Assembly: GCF_016900375.1 (NCBI RefSeq)
Contig: NZ_JACJKB010000002.1
Location: 124,001-188,000 of the forward strand
Source of the DNA: Collinsella tanakaei
GTDB lineage: Bacteria > Actinomycetota > Coriobacteriia > Coriobacteriales > Coriobacteriaceae
Length of the DNA: 64,000 bases
Reading direction: 5' to 3'
In this document: positions 28,908 through 56,273 of the stretch, piece after piece
How positions within the stretch are numbered: the first letter of the stretch is position 1
Layout of the letters: each line of letters opens with the position of its first letter
Translations under genes and position numbers: made by a program
The notes under the pieces: generated by a model
Databases searched by the model: none
The model's input: the letters and a program-made list of their open reading frames with translations, nothing else
What the model was told of the DNA's origin: nothing

Positions 28908-28982
28908 GCGGGCATCGCCAAGTGGTAAGGCATCAGCTTCCCAAGCTGACACTCGCGGGTTCGAGTCCCGTTGCCCGCTCCA
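28908..28982 (+). tRNA. tRNA-Gly (anticodon CCC)
   Basis: Acceptor GCGGGCA pairs with TGCCCGC; the anticodon stem TCAGC/GCTGA encloses the loop TTCCCAA, giving CCC; the T arm is CGGGTTCGAGTCCCG. The CCA end is encoded in the DNA (28980-28982). Confidence 0.96.
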
Positions 28983-28991
28983 GGATTATTT

Positions 28992-29021
28992 ACGGCACCA
29001 GCAATGGTGCCGTTTCTCGTT
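28992..29021 (+). terminator. Hairpin after tRNA-Gly
   Basis: ACGGCACC (28992-28999) pairs with GGTGCCGT (29006-29013), followed by a T-rich stretch. Confidence 0.7.
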
Positions 29022-29035
29022 TGGGCACCCTGCAC

Positions 29036-29160
29036 GGACTCGAACCGCAAGGTCGCGAGACTGTGCAAACGCGTGAGCGTTTGCCAGTGAGCGTGCGAGG
29101 GCGCAAAGCGCCTGAAGCTGCGGACGGCGGAGCCGGACGCGAGTCCCGTTGCCCGATCCA
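29036..29160 (+). repeat. tRNA-tail element, Gly copy
   Basis: A 125-base structured element. It opens GGACTCGAACCGCAAGG, contains the hairpin GCAAACGC...GCGTTTGC and a GGCGC...GCGCC hairpin, and ends in a copy of the last 21 bases of tRNA-Gly (29140-29160 against 28962-28982, 20 of 21 identical, CCA included). Its opening GGACTCG can pair with its own closing CGAGTCC. The Lys copy at 47567-47698 is closely similar. Confidence 0.8.
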
Positions 29161-29172
29161 GTAAAAAGTGCA

Positions 29173-29206
29173 GGTCAGAGGTATTAAAACCTCCGACCTT
29201 CTTTCG
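29173..29206 (+). terminator. Terminator-like hairpin after the Gly tail element
   Basis: GGTC-GAGGT (29173-29182) pairs with ACCTC-GACC (29189-29198) with one mismatch, followed by TTCTTT. It would end a transcript that includes the tail element. Confidence 0.6.
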
Positions 29207-29215
29207 TATTCAGAA

Positions 29216-29317
29216 GCGACAAGAAGGTGCCAGGTACAAACTTGTCGCCAAAAACATGACACTGGGAACCGTTCTAACTGTCATATTGCAAAAATGGGGA
29301 GTGTCCCCAATTTTGCA
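29216..29317. repeat. Palindromic repeat island (families A, B, C)
   Basis: Three short palindromes in a row: A (29216-29248, GCGACAAG...CTTGTCGC), B (29256-29284, ATGACA...TGTCAT with CTAACTG) and C (29287-29317, TGCAAAAATGGGGA with its near complement). Relatives of each recur elsewhere in the window, notably in the same A-B-C order at 55911-56130. Confidence 0.85.
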
Positions 29318-47434: not shown

Positions 47435-47507
47435 GGGCCGTTAGCTCAGCTGGCAGAGCAGGGGACTTTTAATCCCAAGGTCTAGGGTTCGAACCCCTAA
47501 CGGCCCA
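47435..47507 (+). tRNA. tRNA-Lys (anticodon TTT)
   Basis: Acceptor GGGCCGT pairs with ACGGCCC; discriminator A; D arm GCTC...GAGC; anticodon loop CTTTTAA gives TTT; T arm GGGTTCGAACCC. CCA is not encoded (CCC follows). TACAAT at 47420-47425 is too close to the gene for a standard -10 of a long leader but fits a start just before the tRNA. Confidence 0.96.
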
Positions 47508-47520
47508 CCCTTGATTGAAG

Positions 47521-47546: not shown

Positions 47547-47566
47547 CACGTTCGTGGCCCCGGCGG

Positions 47567-47698
47567 GGGTTCGAACCGCAAGGTCGCGAAGCTGAGCAAA
47601 CGCGCGAGCGTTTGCCAGAGAGCGTGCGAGGGCGGCGCAGCCGCCCGGAGCTGCGGACGCCGCAGGCGGACGCGAACCCCTAACGGCCCACCCTTGAT
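47567..47698 (+). repeat. tRNA-tail element, Lys copy
   Basis: Opens GGGTTCGAACCGCAAGG, contains GCAAACGC...GCGTTTGC and GGGCGGC...GCCGCCC hairpins and a GACGCCGCAGGCGGA hairpin, and closes with a perfect 26-base copy of the tRNA-Lys 3' end plus 8 flanking bases (47673-47698 equals 47490-47515, 183 bases apart). The opening GGGGTTCG pairs with the closing CGAACCCC. Confidence 0.85.
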
Positions 47699-52082: not shown

Positions 52083-52248
52083 CATGACAGTTAGGACGGG
52101 GCGCACTGTCATGTTTTTCTCCTTCCAGGCAGCCATCGCCAGCCGCTCCGAAATCGAACCTACGGGTTTGTACCGTTTCAACGCCCCCAAACGGTACAAA
52201 CCCACAGGTTCGATTTTCATGACAGTTAGGACGGGTCCCAGTGTCATG
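52083..52248. repeat. Repeat island: two family B palindromes flanking a 66-base hairpin (E)
   Basis: B2 (52083-52113) and B3 (52218-52248) share CATGACAGTTAGGACGGG and end in TGTCATG. Between them lies E (52151-52216): 28-base arms matching at 26 positions with a 10-base loop. Confidence 0.88.
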
Positions 52249-52267
52249 TTTTGCTGTCCGCGGCGCG

Positions 52268-52300
52268 GGTCCTGCGGGTTCGAATCCCTCTCTCGGTTGG
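52268..52300 (-). repeat. tRNA-tail element, Ser series, truncated second start
   Basis: On the minus strand it reads GAGAGGGATTCGAACCCGCAGG, in the first 22 bases matching the opening of the full Ser element exactly 180 bases away; only the opening is present. Confidence 0.7.
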
Positions 52301-52333
52301 GCAATCGACCTGTTCGATATGCCGTCGCTGAGT

Positions 52334-52477
52334 GGCGGAGAGAGAGGGATGTCGGCCGCCGCTTCGCGCCGCCCTCCCGCTGCGGGCGGCTGCGCCGCCC
52401 TTGCGACTCATGCTGGCAAAGACGCTCACGCGCTTTGCGCAGCATGAGGCCCTGCGGGTTCGAATCCCTCTCGCGCG
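52334..52477 (-). repeat. tRNA-tail element, Ser copy
   Basis: On the minus strand, downstream of tRNA-Ser. It opens GAGGGATTCGAACCCGCAGG, has GCAAAGCGC...GCGTCTTTGC and GGGCGGC...GCCGCCC hairpins, and closes with a 17-base exact copy of the tRNA-Ser end (52334-52350 equals 52530-52546). Confidence 0.78.
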
Positions 52478-52531
52478 TGGTCGAGAAGGGCTCCGGGCCT
52501 CAAACTATTTCATTGTTGGGGATTTAACGGG

Positions 52532-52618
52532 CGGAGAGAGAGGGATTCGAACCCTCGGAACGCTCGCGCGCTCAACGGTTTTCAAGACCGCCGCATTCAA
52601 CCGCTCTGCCATCTCTCC
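52532..52618 (-). tRNA. tRNA-Ser (anticodon TGA)
   Basis: Minus-strand 87-nt tRNA with a long variable arm. Acceptor GGAGAGA pairs with TCTCTCC, discriminator G; anticodon loop CTTGAAA gives TGA; T arm AGGGTTCGAATCCCT. CCA is not encoded. Confidence 0.95.
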
Positions 52619-52670
52619 GTAATGTGTAATGATAGCATCGAATCCAGACGAGTAGGGGAAGGGGAGGCGC

Positions 52671-56155: not shown

Positions 56156-56273
56156 GCGCCTAGCGCGCTCGATGGGTTCGGGTGACGATATGTTCCGAAT
56201 CTGGTCAGGTCCGGGAGGAAGCAGCCATAAGGATCCTCTGCCGGGCACCCGTTCCCATCGAGCGCACGGGCGC
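56156..56273 (+). ncRNA. ffs: Signal recognition particle RNA (4.5S-type)
   Basis: The conserved Ffh-binding core is clear: GGTCAGGTCCGGGAGGAAGC followed by AGCC and, on the other arm, GGATCCTCTGCCGGG. The outer stem GCGCGCTCGATGGG pairs with CCCATCGAGCGC, and GCGCC with GGCGC, setting the ends. It forms the RNA of the particle that targets membrane proteins to SecYEG. Confidence 0.93.

Follow-up and report, generated by a model that had tools for sequence, protein, structure and literature searches.

A hairpin element behind tRNA genes of Collinsella with ends that match the host tRNA

Background

Why does the 3' end of a tRNA-Gly gene, CCA included, occur a second time a short distance downstream of the gene, and what kind of sequence lies between the two copies? 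The question is raised by a stretch of 64,000 nucleotides of Collinsella tanakaei DNA, referred to here as the window. Repeats of the tRNA-Tyr tail have been known in E. coli for decades as a single curiosity, and integrative elements and casposons use the T-loop and 3' end of tRNA and tmRNA genes, where they duplicate the tail and form tandem arrays. Our search of the literature found nothing on RttR, tyrT repeats or tRNA-tail repeats; older subscription papers lay beyond its reach, so that an earlier description of the wider family is possible.

The elements of the window

The host gene, tRNA-Gly(CCC), is located on the plus strand at 28908..28982 (ARAGORN; Rfam RF00005, 63.5 bits), and the parts of it that are copied are the T-arm CGGGTTCGAGTCCCG and the 3' tail GTTGCCCGCTCCA. 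An intrinsic terminator identified by a terminator scan at 28992..29021 (+; ACGGCACC AGCAATG GTGCCGT, then T-rich) separates the tRNA from the element. The left end of the element, GGACTCGAACC at 29036..29046 (+), is the reverse complement of the host T-loop and T-stem, called the inverted T-arm below, and the 5' strand of the closing stem P1 consists of its first 6 nt. The hairpin body with stems P2-P5 occupies 29044..29140 (+), as indicated by the fold, covariation, the shared core and a covariance model, R1, which was built from 11 copies with a structure drawn by hand; the core is common to tRNA loci of many genomes, and R1 matches 29033-29160 with 133 bits for this copy, which is in its training set. 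The right end at 29140..29160 (+) is a direct repeat of the tRNA-Gly 3' tail with CCA, and its first part supplies the 3' strand of P1. The original prediction of a tail copy matching at 20 of 21 positions up to the CCA, 178 bases downstream of the original, was confirmed; with one more base, 28962-28983 (CGAGTCCCGTTGCCCGCTCCAG) reappears at 29140-29161 as CGAGTCCCGTTGCCCGATCCAG, identical at 21 of 22 positions and at the same distance.

Each of the three tRNA genes of the window (Gly, Lys and Ser) has the same arrangement behind it. Behind tRNA-Lys(UUU), called at 47435..47509 (+), the inverted T-arm, body and tail copy CGAACCCCTAACGGCCCACC lie at 47564..47693 (+; R1 127 bits, also a training copy). 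The identical stretch that had been noticed in the Gly and Lys elements (29033-29160 and 47564-47693) is indeed present and reads CGAACCGCAAGGTCGCGA. The original prediction named only these two loci; tRNA-Ser(UGA), called at 52529..52619 on the minus strand, also has an element at 52333..52470 (-), with the inverted T-arm GAGAGGGATTCGAACCC, a body of a second type and the tail copy ATCCCTCTCTCTCCGCC, followed by the start of a truncated second unit at 52270..52294 (-; GAGAGAGGGATTCGAACCCGCAGG). This element is absent from the R1 training set and is still matched with 63 bits.

A hairpin stands 3' of the Gly tail copy at 29172..29206 (+), and it had been taken for a terminator of the element's own. 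The hairpin does exist, but in the scan it is terminator-like on the minus strand, where its T-run is found, and 29161-29206 bears a weak likeness to the end of an integrative element described below, so that the reading as an own terminator did not hold up and is unlikely. It is no copy of the tRNA-Gly terminator at 28992-29021, whereas many sister loci do repeat theirs.

Layout and distribution

The 50 tRNAs of the source genome were surveyed together with about 700 nt downstream of each, less at contig ends. The order was constant: tRNA, intrinsic terminator, inverted T-arm, hairpin body of about 110 nt, and a copy of the host 3' tail with CCA. The inverted T-arm lies 46-57 nt and the tail copy about 160 nt past the tRNA gene in this genome. 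About 15 of the 50 tRNA genes bear an element or a remnant. Full elements were found behind Gly-CCC, Lys-UUU, Lys-CUU, Ser-UGA, Ser-CGA, Ala-CGC (two full units and part of a third), Thr-CGU and Leu-CAG, and truncated or contig-end copies and remnants behind Ala-UGC, Thr-UGU, Val-UAC, Leu-UAA, Ser-GCU and Arg-CCU. A chance repeat is ruled out by this common layout at about 15 of 50 tRNAs and by the model matches.

R1 has matches in 40 of the 43 genomes of the genus Collinsella and strong matches in other genera of the same family. Three other families of the order gave weak matches, which are genuine: 14 of the 16 loci examined there are behind a tRNA, and in nearly all the tail matches at 17-18 of 18 bases. 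Among 396 sampled genomes of the phylum, R1 had no match outside the family of Collinsella, and a DNA pattern scan matched Collinsella species and Candidatus Limicola. Altogether, the host range in Coriobacteriales comprises 22 or more isoacceptors and tmRNA. The tmRNA (ssrA) elements are those at loci L130 (genome G016) and L189 (G158), where the inverted T-arm and the tail match the tmRNA 3' end. These data support the view of the original prediction that this is a discrete element with ends matched to the host tRNA, and they show its conservation in relatives.

Linkage to tRNA-like ends

Analysis of 159 unique R1 matches showed a tRNA upstream on the same strand in 151; 131 of these lie 45-66 nt from the tRNA and 16 are second units. 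The remaining eight comprise four copies at contig edges, two after tmRNA and two after displaced tRNA 3' halves, one of which adjoins the end of an integrase-like reading frame. Apart from the four contig-edge copies, none of the 159 is away from a tRNA-like 3' end.

The ends follow the host closely. In 148 units, which were chosen by tail match, a comparison of the 8 acceptor and discriminator positions gives 7.96 matches to the host and 3.3 to other tRNAs, and the host tRNA is strictly the best match in 146. Identity per tail position in these units is 96-100%, with 84% for the final A. The tail still matches at 15.3 of 16 positions in 27 units with unrelated terminators. In 62 of 141 units the terminators are at least 90% identical within the locus, yet different between species. 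The host tRNA gene remains intact, and the displaced tail copy stands at the far end. Identical tails could also be maintained by gene conversion.

Movement of the body and array structure

The nearest relative of the body was found at a different tRNA for 68 of 139 bodies. For example, the Gly-CCC body of C. tanakaei ET10 (G016) is 98% identical to the Arg-CCU body of the same genome and 99% identical to the Arg-CCU body of Ca. C. stercoripullorum (G013). The alignment boundary is informative: the common core, from TCGAA to CGA, matches the nearly universal T-loop, and the sequence on both sides is host-specific. Since bodies up to 99% identical stand behind different tRNAs with host-matched tails, we infer that the body moves and that the ends are rewritten. 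We also detected a difference in occupancy at tRNA-Glu(UUC), where the source genome has a terminator without an element, and G008 and G017 have an element; in G008 a second terminator accompanies it, with almost the sequence of the source-genome terminator at this place. This presence and absence could reflect loss by recombination rather than gain.

The arrays have the form (tail-terminator-inverted T-arm-body)n with a truncated last unit, the tail plus terminator being often repeated. The right ends of the last partial units fall at scattered points, which rules out a target-site duplication with a fixed breakpoint. In one Collinsella group, the later units at three tRNA-Gly(CCC) loci (L011, L024 and L026) are without terminator and inverted T-arm; only the last hairpin and the tail are repeated, and each ends in or near GTTGCCCGCTCCA.

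Genes resembling IS110 transposases by eye are located in or near an element at L062 (source genome, Ser GCU) and L017 (G032, Gly CCC), as if the element hairpins were a target.

Fold and covariation

The Gly element has a predicted fold of -61.5 kcal/mol (z -3.0), and 1 of 200 shuffles was equally good. The fold is a closed multi-branch structure with, at its base, the inverted T-arm paired with the tail copy. This is consistent with the original prediction on the opening GGACTCG and the closing CGAGTCC, which pair at the fold base and change together in the Lys element and in 113 distinct aligned copies; across these copies the pairing is kept by compensatory change. Double changes occur in 35 of 40 pairs (613 cells, against 153 when shuffled) in this large alignment, which was fitted to the structure, and a MAFFT alignment of 11 sequences agrees (27 double changes against 9).

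G-U makes up 1.4-1.9% of the pair cells of the elements, against 5% in tRNA acceptor stems and 9% in T stems, and A-C mismatches in the elements reach about half the frequency of G-U or more. In minimum-energy folds the G-U share is 3.1% for the elements, 9.5% for shuffles, 9.6% for tRNAs and 13.9% for terminators. Strong covariation almost without G-U points to DNA hairpins rather than selection at the RNA level, because RNA-level selection tolerates G-U and DNA hairpins would not; a DNA-level process is thus favoured. The scarcity of G-U could in part result from strong G+C stems or from the replacement of whole hairpins.

Counterparts in E. coli and Salmonella

The tyrT-tyrV-rttR region of K-12 has the tRNA-Tyr tail, 56 nt, a left end GGGGAAGGATGAGAA that is the inverted T-arm of tRNA-Tyr, hairpins, and a tail copy with CCA, and the tyrT/tyrV repeat has a period of 178 bp. 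In RefSeq the RttR small RNA begins 7 nt past the tyrV CCA and ends with the CCA of the first tail copy, and the Rfam RtT model (RF00391) holds the same closing stem and tail. Of 5426 complete E. coli genomes, 4695 have RtT, at 1 to 14 places in each. An unannotated element is present at proK of K-12 MG1655 (NC_000913.3; L256): the tRNA-Pro gene is followed by a terminator, an inverted T-arm at +47, an RtT body, a tail copy matching at 19 of 20 positions at +148, an unchanged repeat of the terminator, a second inverted T-arm and a REP-like palindrome. In strain CKJ_1000_3.1 the proK element is labelled RtT "processed from tyrT transcript", and Salmonella proK has two full units. The Tyr and Pro units of E. 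coli have one common body and core with Tyr-specific or Pro-specific ends, the same behaviour as that of the Collinsella elements.

The Coriobacteriales elements share with the E. coli tyrT/tyrV 178-bp repeats and RtT (RttR, RF00391) the repeated tail with CCA and a spacer of about 56 nt, the inverted T-arm at the left end that pairs with the tail, a body with GA spacers and GNA loops, and arrays with a truncated last unit. They differ in that the window copy is unmatched by RF00391, and in that they occur at tmRNA and at 22 or more isoacceptors, in most cases downstream of an intrinsic terminator. The proK element of E. coli and Salmonella shows exactly the Collinsella layout, including the repeated terminator and, in K-12, the truncated second unit; its body sequence is enterobacterial. 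The Rfam RtT model has no match in the window at the curated threshold (45 bits) and none at E values up to 10 for 28980-29230; no known Rfam family could be assigned to the window element at threshold. RF00391 matched 0 of 198 genomes of the phylum, with a positive E. coli control. Conversely, R1 ranked the four E. coli units first, with only 7-10 bits (E 0.065-0.22). Since homology between the Collinsella and E. coli bodies is unproven, it is well supported that the window element works like RtT, and membership in RF00391 is unsupported.

Integrative elements and casposons resemble the element studied here in their T-loop and 3' end target, duplicated tail and tandem arrays, but this element is without genes, has a hairpin body of about 110 nt and an extra inverted T-arm, and includes the terminator in its repeat. 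REP/BIME sequences with RAYT (Y1) transposases are likewise short, non-coding, palindromic DNA with alternating inverted units in many copies; in contrast to them, Collinsella-type elements occur only at tRNA-like 3' ends, have ends copied from the target and are also present in genomes without a Y1 transposase. By eye, no conserved tetranucleotide, a REP/BIME trait, was seen at the hairpin foot. Of 43 Collinsella genomes, 37 have Y1 transposase genes (PF01797), and several of these genes lie no further than 4-5 kb from an element; G001, G005, G026 and G033 have elements and no PF01797 match. An origin from RAYT/REP is ruled out by such genomes, and a phage origin was rejected after neither phage records nor viral contigs gave a match.

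Origin of the element

We consider it probable that the sequence behind tRNA-Gly is a mobile DNA hairpin element of the RtT type, non-coding and linked to tRNA and tmRNA 3' ends, with ends written from the host. Many different tRNAs are followed by a common hairpin core whose borders match the T-loop; its left flank is the reverse complement and its right flank the direct copy of the host T-loop and T-stem 3' strand, and the right copy also includes the acceptor, the discriminator and CCA. With a body of about 110 nt, too small for a gene, the element lacks coding capacity, and we could tie no recombinase or transposase to it. Hairpin DNA, single-stranded or cruciform, would be the form in which the core is copied or inserted at the T-loop and tail; the target tail would thereby be duplicated and the ends written from the target, and exchange between tail copies would add or remove whole units. 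A pairing of the tail acceptor strand with DNA 5' of the inverted T-arm, seen by eye at a few Gly loci only, was dropped.

It is unlikely, though worth weighing, that the element instead encodes a functional RNA, made by read-through of the terminator, folded into a structured RNA, given its 3' CCA by tRNA-processing enzymes and having a function as RNA. The annotated RttR of E. coli, which extends from just past the tyrV CCA to the first tail-copy CCA, is a precedent for transcription, and RF00391 includes the closing stem and tail found here. The fold lies on the transcript strand, GNRA or GNA loops are frequent, covariation is strong, and the tail is preserved through the CCA at 96-100% per position (84% at the last A). 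Against such a role, an intrinsic terminator stands between tRNA and element in the window, at most loci and at E. coli proK, a scan found no plus-strand promoter-like site in the Gly copy of the window, G-U pairs are rarer than in tRNAs, terminators and shuffled sequence, and bodies interchange freely between tRNAs. Small RNAs may arise from transcription of the element, as RtT does in E. coli, and would probably be a by-product.

Two further explanations start from the tail copy. The copies might serve phages and integrative elements as extra integration sites at tRNA and tmRNA 3' ends, the usual integrase targets. In G017, the DNA that follows the tail copies at Gln(UUG) and Thr(UGU) agrees over about 45 nt with a hairpin of the related genome G010. 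There the hairpin forms the tRNA-side end of an integrative element that has inserted at tRNA-Gly, and it lies by an integrase-like ORF; the window hairpin is weakly similar. This likeness suggests that tail copies may sometimes be used as attachment sites and that the supposed terminator of the window may be a leftover of one. As an account of the element itself, the spare site is nevertheless improbable: known insertions also use the tRNA itself, pushing the array outward (L063, L169, L171), the hairpin could be carried by other sequences, and the body and inverted T-arm are left unexplained. Very improbable, in our judgement, is that these are old tail duplications kept alike by slippage, gene conversion and hairpin-templated correction, with neither mobility nor function. 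Truncated last units with scattered breakpoints and the within-locus identity of terminators in the 62 of 141 units agree with it, and palindromes free of G-U would be a product of hairpin-templated correction; but different tRNAs of different species have cores with up to 99% identity, tmRNA is also a host, spacing and order are fixed across an order and in Enterobacteriaceae, and the tail is kept in the 27 units with unrelated terminators. A simple tandem duplication of the tRNA end yields neither the inverted T-arm nor the interchange of bodies.

Implications and further observations

It is quite possible, and we propose it tentatively, that RtT-type elements form a cross-phylum class of self-customising mobile DNA hairpins whose core moves between tRNA and tmRNA genes and whose two ends are written from the T-arm and 3' tail of the target at each insertion by a copying mechanism as yet undescribed. 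If this is true, the E. coli tyrT repeat puzzle would be one enterobacterial case. If the Collinsella and K-12 proK elements are of the same kind, the tyrT curiosity would become a case of a general class of tRNA-linked DNA in which mobility would write the target's own sequence into the element ends, and two K-12 loci would allow the purpose of the tyrT repeats to be tested. An annotation would be corrected too, since the label "RtT processed from tyrT" sits at a tRNA-Pro gene, and a breakpoint site of draft Collinsella assemblies would be marked. Contigs C4, C16, C17, C23, C24, C45 and C55 of genome G000 stop at a tRNA or no more than about 200 bases from one; draft assemblies thus seem to break at the repeats, which makes the element counts minimum values.

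Other short palindromic repeats (ATGACAGTTAGGACGG... and GGGAAAATAGGGACAGGCACC...) are located just past elements, at 29220-29310 and 52200-52260 of the window and at L002, L003 and L039, and tRNA 3' flanks therefore seem to gather palindromic repeats. The window also contains a bacterial small SRP RNA at 56169-56264 (RF00169, 51.9 bits).
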